Source of the DNA: Synergistaceae bacterium
GTDB lineage: Bacteria; Synergistota; Synergistia; Synergistales; Aminobacteriaceae
Direction: 5' to 3'
DNA: 64,000 nucleotides
NCBI GenBank assembly: GCA_017439345.1
Contig: JAFSJJ010000024.1
Location: forward strand, 1 to 64,000
Under the pieces are notes generated by a model that worked only from the letters and a program-made list of their open reading frames with translations, made no database searches and was not told where the DNA came from. Positions 49,225 through 57,372 of this stretch are shown in pieces. The position numbers and the translations under genes were made by a program. Positions within the stretch are counted from its first letter, which is position 1. Every line of letters starts with the position of its first letter.

Positions 49225-49860
49225 TTATTTATTTTCAAGCTCCTTTGCCTTGTCGAGTAAATGCTTTAACCTTCTTGCCGTCGGTGGATGTGAATTAAAT
49301 CCGTTGGGACTCGTGATGATTTTATTATCCGCAAATGCCTTCATTGCTCTATATAATCCGTATGGTGAATAACCTGCCTTGACTGATAACGCTACACCGT
49401 AATCATCAGCTTCAACTTCCTGACCTCGAGAGAAGCCGCTCTCTGCTAAGTTCGCTCCGACTTGGCCTGCTAAACGTGCTGCCGTGCCTGCATTGCCTTT
49501 GACCATTCCCAGCAAGCCGCCTAACACTGCCCAGCCTACACCCCTGCCGACCCGCCTGTTATAGTGTCCCAGTCTTACGTGTCCTATTTCGTGGCCTAAG
49601 ACTCCTGCAATCTGTTCTTCAGTGTCAAGAATGCGCATTAAGCCTCGTGTTACATGGACGCTGTAATTATTCTGAGATTTATATTTGACCCATGCATTCG
49701 GTGATTTCTCGTTCTCAAAATTTATCTTAACCGTAGGGAAATTGTCGGCCTCTGAAATTCTCTTCCATGCTGAGATTACAGTTCGTTCGCTTATTTTAGC
49801 ATGTGAACAAGAACTTAATATCAACGCAAAGATTACACTCAATAAAAATTTTCTTGTCAT
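49225..49860 (-). CDS. M48-family zinc metallopeptidase, lipoprotein
   Basis: 211 aa. A signal with lipobox LSSC (Cys18) is followed by the M48 catalytic core: GVLGHEIGHVRLGHY (zinc His90, His94, Glu91) and QEVEADDYG (Glu149, third ligand). Small lipoproteins of this BepA/LoiP-like group degrade misfolded outer-membrane or periplasmic proteins. ATG 49860 (MTRKFLL) follows GGAGG; the frame extends upstream to 49914 without support. Confidence 0.88.
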   Translation of the reverse strand: MTRKFLLSVIFALILSSCSHAKISERTVISAWKRISEADNFPTVKINFENEKSPNAWVKYKSQNNYSVHVTRGLMRILDTEEQIAGVLGHEIGHVRLGHYNRRVGRGVGWAVLGGLLGMVKGNAGTAARLAGQVGANLAESGFSRGQEVEADDYGVALSVKAGYSPYGLYRAMKAFADNKIITSPNGFNSHPPTARRLKHLLDKAKELENK

Positions 49861-49951
49861 GAATAATTCACCTCCATAAAAAATTTTACCGCCGTCATGA
49901 TTCTGCCTCAACAAAACTCACGACGACGGCAACAAGTCAATTAATTATATT

Positions 49952-52237
49952 TTACAGGGGAGTTACTCCCAAAACGATACAAGCAACGATTGATAAAATA
50001 CTGATTCCCCAGATCCACGGCAGTGAGTACTTGATGTGTTCGCCTACATCGATCTCAAGAAGTCCGAGTCCTAAATATGCGGCAGGGCTCAACGGTGAAA
50101 TCATGACTCCTACGTTCTCAGCTACGAGCAATACGCACGCTACATCCTGAGGATTGACTCCGAACTGTGAAGCTATACCGACAACTACAGGCAGTAACCC
50201 GAAATAGAAGCTGTCTGTACCCAAGCACATAATCAACGGAACTGCGAAACATGCGACTATAAAATGAGTATATCTCCCTAAGTCAGGCGGAATTACAGTA
50301 ACGACTGCGGAGGCCATTGCGTTTAACATTCCTGTTCCTGATAAGACTCCGGTGAAGATACCTGCTGCAAAGAGTGTTACGACCATTGACATTGCTGCAA
50401 CACCGTAATTCTTGAGCTTTGCATTCTGTTCTTTGAGAGTCTTAATATTAAGAGGCAGTGAAATCGCAAGGGCTATCATGAAGACATATGCAGGATTGAA
50501 GCTGCCGAACATTAACGCGGCGACAACTGCGACAACGAGAACGAAATTATAAATCTGGAGCCACTGAGGCAGAGTCGATTTCTTCTCTTCAGCTTGAGCA
50601 ACTTCTCCTTCATCTGCTGTAAGTCCAAGTTTCTTAATGCGTCTCTTCTGAATTCCGCTGAGCAGGAATGCTACTACGAACGTGATTACAAGCATTGCAC
50701 CCTGAACAGGTAATAATCTATGCCATAAAATATTCGGGTCTGTCTCTAATACAGTCGCGGCTCTGATTGTAGGGCCTCCCCACGGGCAGACGTTCATGAC
50801 TCCGATAGCAACGCAGATTAAGAGCATTAGTGAACGATTATCCATTTTTAATTTCTTGAACATAGGAAGCATTGCAGTAATCGTTATTATGAAAGTCGTA
50901 GCTCCTGAACCGTCAAGGTGTCCGATGATGCCTACAGCTGCCGTTGCTAACATTACAAGTGTTACGTTAGTGCCTGCCTTCTTGATTAAGAAGTTGACTA
51001 TAGGGTCAAATACTCCCTGCTCGCTCATCAACGAGAAGAACGAAATCGAGAACACGAAAAGCGATACAGTCGAGACCATCTTAGAAATTCCTGACGCTGC
51101 GAATTTATTAACGGCTAACGGGTCAAAGCCTGCGATGAGAGCTGCAATAGTCGGAAGCAATATAAATGCAATAGGAGGAATAACTATTTTGCGGATTAAG
51201 CATATAATCAGGATTAAGACCATTACGAAGCCTATTATTGCAAGTTTGGGACTTGGAGCTGCTGCCGGTTTCTTTGTTTTAGAATCTTTTGCAGGCTTCA
51301 ACATGTTCGTAAAAGTCTTGTATTCGTCATTAAGAATCTTGCTGTACTCTGCACCCTTTGCAAAGCCCGGTCTCTCATCATATCCTCCCTGCTGCAAGAA
51401 ATCTTTCCAGCCCTGCGAGTCTGCAACTTTCCCGATTAATGCTTCAAGTGCATCAATGGCTTCCTGGGGAGTTCCCTTTTTAGCAAAAATTCCACGTTCA
51501 GATCCTAAAAACGCGTTGATGCCTAAATCTTTTGCACACTCTATATGAGGATAACGATTCATGCGTTTTTCAGCAAGGATTAATAACGGGATAATCTCTC
51601 CGGCTTCGATTTGAGGTGTTATTTCCTGAGTTCCTGTTACCATCAAGTCAATCTGACCTTCGATTAATGCCTTTGTCATGCCTCCTCCTGTCGGATAAGA
51701 GACTTCAAGTATATTAAGCCCTTCTGTAGCTTGCTGGAACGATAAGCCGTCAACTCCGATTCTTGTGAGCATTCCGATACTTATACTAAATGGATGAGCT
51801 TTCACATAATCGCGTAATTCAGTGAATGTGTTATAGCCCCGCTCCTCCATAGCTTTTCGTGAAGTAGCTATAACGTCAATTGCATGAACGAGTCTAGCGA
51901 CAGGAACAAATTCATCAAGCATTTTGAATTTCATCTCGCCCAAGATGTCCTGAATTAATAAACTCTGAGTGCCGAGCATAAATGTATAACCGTCGGCAGG
52001 CTGTTCGCGGGTATAAGCTGCGCCGTTACTGCCATTGCCTCCAGTTACGTTTATGATATTGACTCCGAGCCCTTCTTCTTTGAGACCTGCTGCAAGTGCC
52101 CTGAGTGTCAGGTCTGCTCCGCCGCCTTCTCCCCACGGACACACGATAGTGATCGGCTTTGTGAAGGTGAAGTCAGCTGCTAAAACGGGACTCACGCAAA
52201 GGACTGCGATTAACAATGCGTAAAGAAACTTTTTCAC
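49952..52237 (-). CDS. TctC-type binding protein fused to a CitMHS-type transporter
   Basis: 761 aa from GTG 52237 (AGGAGG 9 nt upstream; the frame opens at 52297). Residues 1-20 are a signal peptide ending VLA. Residues 21-312 are a Bug/TctC periplasmic binding domain (CPWGEGGGADLTLRALA, ARLVHAIDVIATS, GVDGLSFQQA). A Lys/Pro/Ala linker (314-331) leads to a polytopic CitMHS-like domain of about 12 helices (332-761: GHLDGSGATTFIITITAMLP, GVMNVCPWGGPTIRAATVL, GTDSFYFGLLP, AENVGVMISPLSPA). CitMHS carriers import metal-citrate with H+ and normally lack a binding protein; TctC normally works with TctAB. Likely substrate: a tricarboxylate, but unproven. Confidence 0.88.
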   Translation of the reverse strand: MKKFLYALLIAVLCVSPVLAADFTFTKPITIVCPWGEGGGADLTLRALAAGLKEEGLGVNIINVTGGNGSNGAAYTREQPADGYTFMLGTQSLLIQDILGEMKFKMLDEFVPVARLVHAIDVIATSRKAMEERGYNTFTELRDYVKAHPFSISIGMLTRIGVDGLSFQQATEGLNILEVSYPTGGGMTKALIEGQIDLMVTGTQEITPQIEAGEIIPLLILAEKRMNRYPHIECAKDLGINAFLGSERGIFAKKGTPQEAIDALEALIGKVADSQGWKDFLQQGGYDERPGFAKGAEYSKILNDEYKTFTNMLKPAKDSKTKKPAAAPSPKLAIIGFVMVLILIICLIRKIVIPPIAFILLPTIAALIAGFDPLAVNKFAASGISKMVSTVSLFVFSISFFSLMSEQGVFDPIVNFLIKKAGTNVTLVMLATAAVGIIGHLDGSGATTFIITITAMLPMFKKLKMDNRSLMLLICVAIGVMNVCPWGGPTIRAATVLETDPNILWHRLLPVQGAMLVITFVVAFLLSGIQKRRIKKLGLTADEGEVAQAEEKKSTLPQWLQIYNFVLVVAVVAALMFGSFNPAYVFMIALAISLPLNIKTLKEQNAKLKNYGVAAMSMVVTLFAAGIFTGVLSGTGMLNAMASAVVTVIPPDLGRYTHFIVACFAVPLIMCLGTDSFYFGLLPVVVGIASQFGVNPQDVACVLLVAENVGVMISPLSPAAYLGLGLLEIDVGEHIKYSLPWIWGISILSIVACIVLGVTPL

Positions 52238-52297
52238 GTGCAATAACCTCCTGTGATTATAAAAAATTTTATGGATGAGAATATTATAGCGAATCAA

Positions 52298-52515
52298 TGC
52301 ATGTTATACTATTAAAAACTTTTCGAGCTTCACAAAACTTCTTTCACGAGTTAATAATCAAGTTACTAATACAATTACTAATACGAATATCACTCTTAAA
52401 GCAATATCACAGCTTGATTAAATGCTTTACTCTTTCACGATAACTTTTCAGAATGCACGGCGTGTTATACTATTCAGCAAATTTTTGCGGTTTAACAAAA
52501 GGAGTGAATCACTTC
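52298..52515 (+). promoter_or_regulatory. Leader of asd with repeated TGTTATACTATT and the paired TTACTAATAC element
   Basis: TGTTATACTATT occurs at 52302-52313 and 52463-52474; both read as extended -10 boxes (TG-N-TATACT). Between them lies the paired TTACTAATAC repeat (52359-52384) shared with 22231-22256. The ribosome site is AAAGGAG at about 52498-52504. No -35 of quality was seen. This suggests two promoters with an intervening regulatory site. Confidence 0.4.
52359..52384. repeat. Intergenic repeat, copy B (paired TTACTAATAC)
   Basis: Identical over 26 bases to 22231-22256; both hold two TTACTAATAC copies at a 12-bp period. The similarity extends weakly a further 15-20 bases downstream. 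Confidence 0.6.
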
Positions 52516-53604
52516 ATGCAAAAGAAATTACGCGTCGGAGTTCTAGGCGCAACAGGTATGGTAGGACAGCGTTTTATTCAGATACTTCATAATCATCCGT
52601 GGTTCGATATTCAAGTCATTGCAGCTTCACCAAACAGCAAGGGCAAGACTTATGAGCAAGCTATGCAGGGACGCTGGCTTCTCGATGAGCCTATTCCTGA
52701 CAACGTTAAGAACATGACTCTTGATGATGTCAACGATGTGAAAGCAATTTCAGGACGAGTCGATTTCGTCTTCAGCGCAGTGAACATGACTAAGGACGAA
52801 ATTAAAGCAATCGAAGAGCAATACGCAAAGAGCGAGACTCCTGTTGTGTCAAATAACTCTGCTCACAGATGGACTCCTGATGTTCCGATGATAATTCCTG
52901 AAATTAATTCAGAACATGCAAAAGTCATCGAGTTCCAGAGAAAGAGGCTTCACACTTCACGGGGCTTCATAGCAGTCAAGCCAAATTGCTCTATTCAGTC
53001 ATATGCTCCGGCATTTGCTGCCTGGTCAGAGTTTGAACCCTACGAAGCAATAGTAACGACTTATCAGGCAATCTCAGGGGCAGGCAAGAACTTTTCAACA
53101 TGGCCTGAAATGGTCGGCAACGTAATCCCCTTCATATCAGGTGAAGAGGAGAAGAGCGAACGTGAACCCCTGCGAATATTCGGCAAACTCGAGGGCGGAG
53201 AGATCGTCCCGGCAGGTGAACCAAAAATCAGCGCGCAGTGTATCAGAATCCCTGTTTTATATGGACATACGGCAGCAGCGTTTGTAAAATTCAGGAAGGC
53301 TCCCGGCAGCAAAGAAATCTTGATCGAAAAATTAAATTCTTTCACGAGTGTTGCTCAGGAACTCAAATTACCGACAGCTCCGAGTCAATTTATCAAGTAC
53401 ATGACCGAAGATAATCGCCCTCAAGTAGCTCTTGACGTTAATTATGAAAACGGTATGGGAGTAACAATAGGCAGGCTCAGACCTGATAATATTTATGACT
53501 GGAAGTTCGTAGGCTTGTCCCATAATACACTAAGAGGCGCTGCAGGCGGTGCAGTTGAATGCGCTGAATTATTAACGGCACTAAAATACATCGAGGCAAA
53601 GTAA
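52516..53604 (+). CDS. asd: Aspartate-semialdehyde dehydrogenase
   Basis: Reduces aspartyl phosphate to the semialdehyde, the branch point to lysine/diaminopimelate and threonine/methionine. 362 aa of the archaeal/fungal-type subclass: VGVLGATGMVGQRF (NADP-binding), SNNSAHRW, and the active-site Cys in KPNCSIQS, with GAGKNFSTWPEMVGNVIPFI and the catalytic-His region RIPVLYGHTAA. ATG 52516 (MQKKLRVGV) follows AAGGAG; the frame extends to 52453. Followed 3 bp later by hom. Confidence 0.93.
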   Translation: MQKKLRVGVLGATGMVGQRFIQILHNHPWFDIQVIAASPNSKGKTYEQAMQGRWLLDEPIPDNVKNMTLDDVNDVKAISGRVDFVFSAVNMTKDEIKAIEEQYAKSETPVVSNNSAHRWTPDVPMIIPEINSEHAKVIEFQRKRLHTSRGFIAVKPNCSIQSYAPAFAAWSEFEPYEAIVTTYQAISGAGKNFSTWPEMVGNVIPFISGEEEKSEREPLRIFGKLEGGEIVPAGEPKISAQCIRIPVLYGHTAAAFVKFRKAPGSKEILIEKLNSFTSVAQELKLPTAPSQFIKYMTEDNRPQVALDVNYENGMGVTIGRLRPDNIYDWKFVGLSHNTLRGAAGGAVECAELLTALKYIEAK

Positions 53605-54672: not shown

Positions 54673-57372
54673 TTAAGCTCTCTTCACGAAGCATACACAG
54701 CACGCAAGCAATAACCCTAATCCAAATGAGTTACAGCCTCCGCCGCCTCCTCCAGAGCCTCCTGTTGTAGTATTTCCCGTGTTATCAGGTGAAGTAGTAG
54801 TGTTATTATCTTCTAAATCAGGGTCAGGGTTCTCGCCAGTCGCAGCAATATAAAATTTCAGGTGCCATCCGTCGCCCTCAGTGCCGTCACCGATTATGAT
54901 ATAGGGTACATCATCATCTTTGAAAGTTGCTACATATGCAGTCTTGTCTTGATTGATGCTCTTTCCGTCAGCGAGTATAGCAATGAAATCAAGATATAAA
55001 TCATCGCTGGCCGTGAAAGCGTTAATGCAGTCCACAGCAGAAATATTTTCAGCGTCATAGCCTCTCAGAGTCGTATTATTAATCGCAGCAAATAAATTCG
55101 TGTCCATCTCCCGCGCAGAGTCAGACCTGACCCAAACAGCTCCGTATTTAGCAAAGACGTTAAAGACAGCCTGAGAATTAGCAGCCTCTTCAAGTTCGTC
55201 CCAGTGAGAATTAATTAACGAGTTCTGACGCGATATAATGAACCTGAACGACACAGGCAGCAGAGCAATTTTTGTCGGAGCAGCTTCTTCTTCCTCTTCA
55301 GTATTATTATTATCTGTAGTCTCGTCATCTGAAGCAGCAGTCTTGATATTTATCTTGGCCGTAAGTCCTTCAATAGGATCTACATCGAAAGTGAATGCGT
55401 CAATAGCTGAACTGTTAATATATGTCTCTGAGTGGGCAGCGTTAGATACATCACTGTAATTAATCATGACTGGAGTCTTGCCGATTAAGTTCTTGAGTTC
55501 GTTCTCAGTGTTATTATTATTCTGAATCTTGTCAACGAATTCCATCTGGAACGTCTGAAGCCTCACACTTCCCCCGGTAAGAGAGCGTGTTACAGAAGGG
55601 TTAGCCGTCATTCCTGCGATTCTCTGATAGTTCAGTCTTAAATTTTTAGGGTTAGTCGATGAGTACTCATATAATCTAAATGACTCGCTGGTGTCATTGC
55701 TGGTGTCAAGGGTGCTGTATCCTTCGCCTACGTTATTCTTGTACACAGTAACGAGTCCCGGAGCTATCTGGCTGTGAGCATCGAGCCTGAAATATGCCGG
55801 CAGGGTCCCATACAAGTCCGGAGTCAAATCATACTTCCAGTAATCCGGGATAATACTTACATAACCGTTTCTATTAGGATTCGACTGCGAGCCTATTTGA
55901 TCATATCTATATAACTCGTAGCGTGTTCCTGTTCGATTCGTTATGCGTGTCTCAAGAGTATAAACCGGTGCCGAGCTGTTATACGGTGTCATCATGAAGA
56001 ACCTGCCTATGTCCTGAGTCATATCGCTTTGAGCGTCCCAGTCAAATTTAATGCGCTTTACGACATCAGAGCCGTTTTTAATCAGCATATCGAACTTCAA
56101 AGGGTTGTCTTCTGCATTCCCGTTAGAGACTTTTGCAACGACTACAGGAATTGGACTCGCCTCACGAAATGCGCTGTAACCGGTGGCCAAGTCCGCACGC
56201 TGTTTGAAAGCAATATAGCCCAGGGTGCTGCCGTAATCAGTATCGCCCTTTATGCTGATATTTGCCGTTAGATATGCACCGGGATTTATAACCTGATTTC
56301 TTGGCGTAAAGTTTATATCTACTGTGTAATCATCGTTATTAAGTGTAAAGTCAATCTCTTCATAAATGCTTCTTATCTTGCACAAATAGCGTATATTAGT
56401 GCTTGAGTTATTCTCGCCGTATTCAATCGTGTAGACTATGCTGCCTGCTGAGTTATAAACTATATCATCTGCGAAGGTGTAAGCAATATTTCCTGATGAG
56501 TTATAGACTGCATCGCCTGATACTGTGTAAATAGTGCTGCCGTCAGTGTCGTTGATTAAAGTCTTGTCTCCTGAGGCCGTCATGTTATATCTAAGCGGAT
56601 AAGTTATCTTGCCGTTAGTATTAGTTCGAGCAAAGACTTCATTTGTAGATGTGTTTATGACATATTCGACAGGTTCATTGATAGAAGCATACTGATAATT
56701 TGAGTCGTAATCTTCCCACCAGTGAGATCGGGTCGTCCTGTTGTTATAAGAGTTCGTAACGATTCCCCAGCCGAACCAGAACGGAAAATGACGGGCGTAG
56801 GCATTTGCGAAATTGACATTGAAGACAGCCTCTTGACCTTCAGGAATGACGAGACAGAGACTCTCTAAAGGGTCAGGGTAAACGTCATAATAATTGGTGT
56901 TGATAATGCCCCTGTTAAGCCATGTGTCATAGGGTTCAGGCTCTGACGCAAGGACATAATTAAAGCCGTCAACAATATCACCAAGGACAGTTAAACTTAT
57001 GTCAGGGATTTCGCCGCCCATAGTTCTCAAATAGGGAAATGTTACAGTGAAATCATCATCATCGTCGTCATAATAGAGCGCGTAATAAAAATAGTGAAAG
57101 TAATTCTCGTAGACAGTCGCGAACCATTGAGGGCCAGCAATCTCGTTAGGGTTAGTCGTTCGAGTTCCCGTGATGTCTCTTAACTGGTAAAAGAAGCCTA
57201 GTTCAGAATTATTGCCGTAAAGATTATAGATAGCTGCCCAGTCCGTATCATCGTCATCGTTATAGATCGGGTAAAAGTGATATGGATCATAGTTATTCGG
57301 CAGTGAAGCAGCATGAACGCAGCCCGACAGCACGAACGTAAATAAAATTAACGCAAAAAATTTCTTGAGCAT
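54673..57372 (-). CDS. Large secreted protein with Synergist-CTERM-type sorting tail
   Basis: 899 aa. Signal peptide with lipobox VLSGC at the N-terminus (cut also possible after VHA). The body is rich in Asp, Tyr and Asn: an acidic start (YNDDDDTDW), beta-rich repeats (SGNIAYTFADDIVYNSAGSIVYT), and no known catalytic motif. The C-terminus is low complexity (NNTTTSPDNTGNTTTGGSGGGGGG), then CNSFGLGLLLACCVCFVKRA: Gly-run, Cys, hydrophobic helix, Lys-Arg end, as in the Synergist-CTERM domain described for Synergistota. It probably sits on the cell surface, anchored through that tail. Confidence 0.85.
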   Translation of the reverse strand: MLKKFFALILFTFVLSGCVHAASLPNNYDPYHFYPIYNDDDDTDWAAIYNLYGNNSELGFFYQLRDITGTRTTNPNEIAGPQWFATVYENYFHYFYYALYYDDDDDDFTVTFPYLRTMGGEIPDISLTVLGDIVDGFNYVLASEPEPYDTWLNRGIINTNYYDVYPDPLESLCLVIPEGQEAVFNVNFANAYARHFPFWFGWGIVTNSYNNRTTRSHWWEDYDSNYQYASINEPVEYVINTSTNEVFARTNTNGKITYPLRYNMTASGDKTLINDTDGSTIYTVSGDAVYNSSGNIAYTFADDIVYNSAGSIVYTIEYGENNSSTNIRYLCKIRSIYEEIDFTLNNDDYTVDINFTPRNQVINPGAYLTANISIKGDTDYGSTLGYIAFKQRADLATGYSAFREASPIPVVVAKVSNGNAEDNPLKFDMLIKNGSDVVKRIKFDWDAQSDMTQDIGRFFMMTPYNSSAPVYTLETRITNRTGTRYELYRYDQIGSQSNPNRNGYVSIIPDYWKYDLTPDLYGTLPAYFRLDAHSQIAPGLVTVYKNNVGEGYSTLDTSNDTSESFRLYEYSSTNPKNLRLNYQRIAGMTANPSVTRSLTGGSVRLQTFQMEFVDKIQNNNNTENELKNLIGKTPVMINYSDVSNAAHSETYINSSAIDAFTFDVDPIEGLTAKINIKTAASDDETTDNNNTEEEEEAAPTKIALLPVSFRFIISRQNSLINSHWDELEEAANSQAVFNVFAKYGAVWVRSDSAREMDTNLFAAINNTTLRGYDAENISAVDCINAFTASDDLYLDFIAILADGKSINQDKTAYVATFKDDDVPYIIIGDGTEGDGWHLKFYIAATGENPDPDLEDNNTTTSPDNTGNTTTGGSGGGGGGCNSFGLGLLLACCVCFVKRA

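Follow-up and report, generated by a model that had tools for sequence, protein, structure and literature searches.

A single gene in the 64,000-nucleotide stretch of Synergistaceae DNA that was analysed (the window) joins a TctC-type substrate-binding protein (SBP) to a full-length CitMHS carrier, and we consider it likely that the product is a single-chain, binding-protein-dependent secondary transporter, in which citrate or a close tricarboxylate would be handed from the tethered receptor to the ion-coupled carrier. The gene lies on the minus strand in one uninterrupted open frame (49952-52297). The earliest TTG of this frame would give a protein of 781 amino acids; we adopted the GTG at 52237 as the likely start (761 amino acids), because an AGGAGG Shine-Dalgarno motif, read from the sequence (52247..52252, minus strand), stands 9 nt ahead of it and a typical signal peptide begins there. 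The gene so defined covers 49952..52237, with its stop codon at 49952-49954. In order, and all on the minus strand, it encodes a Sec-type signal peptide without a lipobox, recognized by inspection (residues 1-21, MKKFLYALLIAVLCVSPVLAA, 52175..52237; hydrophobic stretch 4-22), a TctC-type substrate-binding domain supported by Pfam, AF2 and Foldseek (residues about 22-313, 51299..52174), an 18-residue linker rich in Lys, Ala and Pro and predicted to be periplasmic (residues 314-331, KPAKDSKTKKPAAAPSPK, 51245..51298), and the CitMHS carrier domain (residues 332-761, 49955..51244), delimited by TIGR00784, PF03600 and hydropathy. A sequence-only reading of this DNA had proposed a single 761-amino-acid chain joining TctC and CitMHS through a linker, and the open frame together with the Pfam and NCBIfam matches confirms it. 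Elsewhere in the window, positions 54673-57372 encode a protein of 899 amino acids, predicted to be exported, in which some stretches are rich in Asp and others in Asn/Thr/Gly and whose hydrophobic C-terminus contains Cys.

The same reading had raised the prospect of a sequencing or assembly fusion, with split genes in relatives. Our search covered 188 genomes of the phylum Synergistota belonging to 63 genera. The rumen Synergistaceae genus to which the window belongs is represented by 43 genomes, and 32 of them carry the joined gene, 30 in full length and 2 truncated by a contig end. Restricted to the 30 genus genomes with a completeness of 90% or more and a contamination of no more than 5%, the count is 25; this genome search did not find the gene in the other 62 genera. 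The whole fusion recurs in other genomes at 72-94% identity, in independent assemblies from goat, sheep, red deer and reindeer, and the named records that bear it are Synergistaceae, some of them labelled Fretibacterium. One genome (G017) carries two full-length copies on separate contigs (G017:C101:14341-16650 and G017:C17:6772-9081). The flanks are often kept as well, with asd and hom divergent upstream and a gene for an M48 peptidase downstream: asd precedes the fusion in 11 of the 28 loci compared, and the peptidase follows it in many. In the window, the Pfam-assigned neighbours are asd (aspartate-semialdehyde dehydrogenase, 52453..53604, plus strand), which is outside the system, and the M48 peptidase (49225..49869, minus strand), which is context only. 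The free-standing relatives of each half are separate genes in other lineages and not split copies of the fusion. An artefactual joining of two genes is thus ruled out, its probability being negligible given that separate studies recovered the joined gene in 32 genomes of the genus, often between the same neighbouring genes. Furthermore, both halves are under strong purifying selection, with nearest-pair dN/dS values of about 0.04-0.14 in the receptor and in the carrier. Outside the genus, a TctC match inside a 676-amino-acid open frame in two order-level genomes (G049 and G057) was attributed to long spurious frames in high-G+C DNA and set aside. Scans of viral contigs found no relative, and none of the 488 records of a plasmid collection that match the window protein covers 80% of it in one place.

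The receptor half is a TctC/Bug substrate-binding protein, by its match to PF03401 (TctC, residues 47-310, 69 bits for a cut-off of 27) and by its fold: the AF2 model has a pLDDT mostly between 70 and 90, and Foldseek aligned it to solved TctC/Bug structures with TM values of 0.75-0.85 (normalised by target). The nearest SBP relatives (53-58% identity) are the TctC proteins of TctCBA operons, many of which adjoin citrate lyase genes; the closest of all, at 57-58% identity, comes from a canonical TctCBA operon, which in sister genomes directly adjoins citrate lyase genes, and the best match within the same genome, at 57% identity, is likewise a TctC from a canonical operon with the order TctC-TctB-TctA. 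The gene order is TctC-TctB-TctA-CitD in G036 and TctC-TctB-TctA-CitE-CitF in G125, and at least 11 genomes of the genus (G005, G010, G013, G022, G024, G028, G031, G032, G033, G095 and G098) have such a TctC and citF on one contig and one strand, about 8 kb apart or less. The ligand-loop motifs of the receptor are largely common to a TctC of this citrate-lyase-linked type. Two TctC paralogues that adjoin TctC or citrate lyase genes (L040 3612-4805 and L042 3402-4577) have an added His/Asn/Ser-rich N-terminal segment, in which the signal peptide seems to be duplicated and the beginning of the mature domain to recur in broken form.

The membrane half belongs to CitMHS (TC 2.A.11), since it matches the curated model TIGR00784 (citMHS) over its full length (residues 333-759, profile positions 2-427 of 431) with 269.1 bits for a cut-off of 259.7, and PF03600 (CitMHS) at residues 351-707 with 82 bits for a cut-off of 31.9. 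That it might instead belong to TctA, as the sequence-only reading had also considered, does not hold: TctA is absent from the Pfam hits, and hhalign, comparing the profile of CitMHS relatives with an alignment of seven TctA proteins, returned a probability of 0.2%. Pfam models of DctM, the NhaC-type Na_H_antiporter and DcuC also match above their cut-offs. The TRAP DctM profile, a weaker match than CitMHS, covers the carrier from end to end (positions 2-408 of 413), and hhalign to DctM gave an E-value of 3e-4 over 295 columns with a probability of only 38%. By these profile comparisons the carrier is thus detectably related to DctM, itself a carrier that operates with an SBP, and to further families assigned to the ion transporter superfamily, whose two-repeat elevator fold it may share. 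Structure prediction, one of the checks suggested beforehand, succeeded for the receptor and not for the carrier: with the full chain the receptor was modelled well and the carrier poorly, and a carrier-only run was worse (pLDDT 41; 41-45 for the carrier over both runs), probably because the alignment contained only near-identical congeners. The closest relative of the carrier (56% identical) is a free-standing CitMHS of 447 amino acids from another family (G166). Maximum-likelihood analysis groups all carriers of the fusions in one clade, to which the G166 protein is sister (support 100/98); in the receptor tree the branching among fusion receptors is not settled, so that it is mainly the carrier tree that speaks for a single origin of the fusion.

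The junction between the halves is clean, the natural C-terminus of TctC meeting the natural N-terminus of CitMHS. Among the 31 sequences measured, the linker has 15-21 residues with 5-6 Lys/Arg, and its region has low pLDDT in the AF2 model. In nine free-standing CitMHS proteins the segment ahead of the first helix is devoid of Lys/Arg, and in nearly all of them Lys/Arg follows directly after this helix; by the positive-inside rule, this charge pattern suggests that the CitMHS N-terminus faces the periplasm (first membrane helix predicted N-out), where an exported receptor could be attached without an extra membrane helix. From the sequence we infer the following cycle, in which the topology, the hand-over, the coupling ion, the elevator movement and the choice of citrate as substrate are all predicted. 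The chain would be exported and its signal peptide cleaved, leaving the receptor in the periplasm, tied by the 18-residue linker to the periplasm-facing N-terminus of the carrier. The receptor would have a high affinity for citrate, perhaps in complex with a metal, or for a close tricarboxylate; on binding it would close, dock on its own carrier and release the ligand into it. Import of the ligand by the carrier would be coupled to protons or another cation and would probably proceed by an elevator movement, like that of related carriers. The receptor would thereby lift the affinity above that of a bare CitMHS, which would be useful for a scarce substrate.

An SBP and a predicted ion-coupled carrier in one chain, conserved in the genus, form the architecture of the SBP-dependent secondary transporter class. 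The main rival explanation is that the CitMHS half transports on its own and that the tethered TctC only concentrates the ligand close to the membrane or changes the affinity, with no obligate hand-over. The CitMHS family transports citrate, and its characterised members work alone, with a Km of 35-63 uM for CitM (PMC7419537); the free-standing CitMHS genes, including the 56%-identical closest relative, have no adjoining SBP gene. The low dN/dS shows that the receptor matters, yet it cannot separate assistance from obligate hand-over; all in all, we regard such an accessory role as rather unlikely. Much less credible still is a carrier half serving mainly as an anchor or gate, with a receptor that works for a TctAB encoded elsewhere or acts as a sensor regulating the carrier. 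The genome does hold at least five TctCBA operons, one of them with the TctC that is 57% identical to this receptor. However, of the two halves the carrier is the better conserved (mean column identity 90%, vs 81% for the whole protein) and retains the invariant CitMHS positions in the alignment, no signalling domain is present, and the pairing of SBP and carrier is specific in TRAP systems (PMC5812351).

The coupling of receptor and carrier also has independent support, from a two-gene pair. A genus member that is 89% complete and in which no fusion was found (G003) has a CitMHS gene followed 15 nt downstream by a TctC gene (locus L037, G003:C246, 5503-7806), so that the order is inverted relative to the fusion domains, and neither a TctA nor a TctB gene lies beside the pair. 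Its CitMHS is 40% identical to the fusion carrier and groups away from the fusions in the carrier tree, so receptor and carrier have apparently been united twice; this independent pair supports their functional coupling. Another pair was found on a Roseomonas mucosa plasmid (NZ_CP025064.1; L110 4654-7296), where a TctC gene lies 363 bp upstream of a CitMHS (citrate:proton symporter) gene, adjoins genes for a CoA-transferase and an HMG-CoA lyase, and has no TctAB within 4.5 kb. As several TctC genes are present on the same replicon, this pair says little about coupling, and a plasmid search with this TctC followed by its neighbouring CitMHS as one query found the adjacency only in that same record.

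Regarding the substrate, the citrate assignment draws on the host as well as on the domains. The genome contains citDEF, at a distance of about 26 kb from its own TctCBA operon, and citF occurs in 31 of the 32 fusion-bearing genomes vs 7 of the 11 others (one-sided Fisher about 0.011, hand count), a co-occurrence that is suggestive only, because both genes go missing in incomplete genomes. The host has at least five TctCBA systems with receptors of their own (L099, L102, L103, L104 and L036, with TctC placed after TctA in L104), so a further citrate importer would be partly redundant. It is possible, rather than probable, that the system works as described on a substrate other than citrate, a related di- or tricarboxylate such as citramalate, tricarballylate or isocitrate. 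No citrate gene lies beside the fusion, its neighbours being asd, hom and the M48 peptidase gene; TctC proteins have broad specificities (PMC5812351); and several CitMHS relatives adjoin CoA-transferase and lyase genes. At two loci (L038 4047-6583 and L052 4060-6967), free-standing CitMHS genes adjoin CaiB-like CoA-transferase genes, named from their sequence, which hints at non-citrate substrates for part of the CitMHS family. On the other hand, the operons of the closest receptors adjoin citrate lyase genes in many genomes, and the carrier scores above the cut-off of the citMHS (citrate:proton symporter) model.

In comparison with known systems, the fusion shares its receptor family with TctCBA (TTT, TC 2.A.80), but it lacks both TctA and TctB: profile comparison shows no relation between the carrier and TctA, and no TctAB lies beside the gene, which places it outside TTT. 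Known CitMHS citrate-metal:proton symporters (TC 2.A.11; CitM and CitH of Bacillus subtilis), to which the membrane half belongs, are free-standing and SBP-independent, and the fusion carrier departs from them by its added SBP. With TRAP systems (DctPQM, SiaPQM) it has in common the predicted SBP-dependent secondary transport and the detectable homology between DctM and the carrier; it differs by an SBP of another family that is covalently tied. It does not belong to TRAP, its SBP being a TctC and its best carrier family CitMHS, with no DctQ-like small subunit or domain in the 761 amino acids. Covalent tethering of the receptor by a linker is also found in GlnPQ, an ABC importer with a fused SBP; such importers are ATP-driven and their membrane part is unrelated to the fusion carrier. 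The nearest parallel is TAXI-GltS, where an SBP is encoded beside GltS or fused to its N-terminus, the fusions coming mostly from one lineage, Lachnospiraceae (Jaques et al. 2025, PMC12344293). In both cases an N-terminal SBP is joined to a secondary carrier that belongs neither to TRAP nor to TTT, and in TAXI-GltS the SBP may also be encoded by a neighbouring gene; the carrier there is a predicted elevator (PMC12344293), as we propose for the fusion carrier. TAXI-GltS combines a TAXI-type TRAP receptor with GltS (ESS family), whereas the present protein combines a TctC-type SBP with CitMHS, and neither of the TAXI-GltS families is among its Pfam and NCBIfam hits. The TAXI-GltS fusions are found in Gram-positive Lachnospiraceae, the TctC-CitMHS fusion in Synergistota, which have an outer membrane. 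The fusion is thus of the same kind as TAXI-GltS, with both parts swapped for other families. The sequence-only reading had called it a type of transporter not known to be described; the literature searched contains no report of TctC-CitMHS, which appears undescribed, although an SBP fused to a carrier outside TRAP and TTT has been known since TAXI-GltS (PMC12344293).

Before 2025, TRAP and TTT were the only secondary transporters known to use a soluble receptor. In the proposal of the TAXI-GltS authors, it is something about the elevator mechanism that makes receptor use possible, and further novel classes would let this be tested (PMC12344293). TctC-CitMHS offers such a test case, with another receptor family and another carrier family, and for which the non-fused relatives of each half and the independent unfused pair of the same genus are at hand for comparison. 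Receptor and carrier being one chain in a 1:1 ratio, the protein should also lend itself well to structural work on the docked state of receptor and carrier. The fusion probably serves to pass a scarce organic acid straight from receptor to carrier. If this is true, it would mean, together with TAXI-GltS, that elevator carriers have gained receptors repeatedly.
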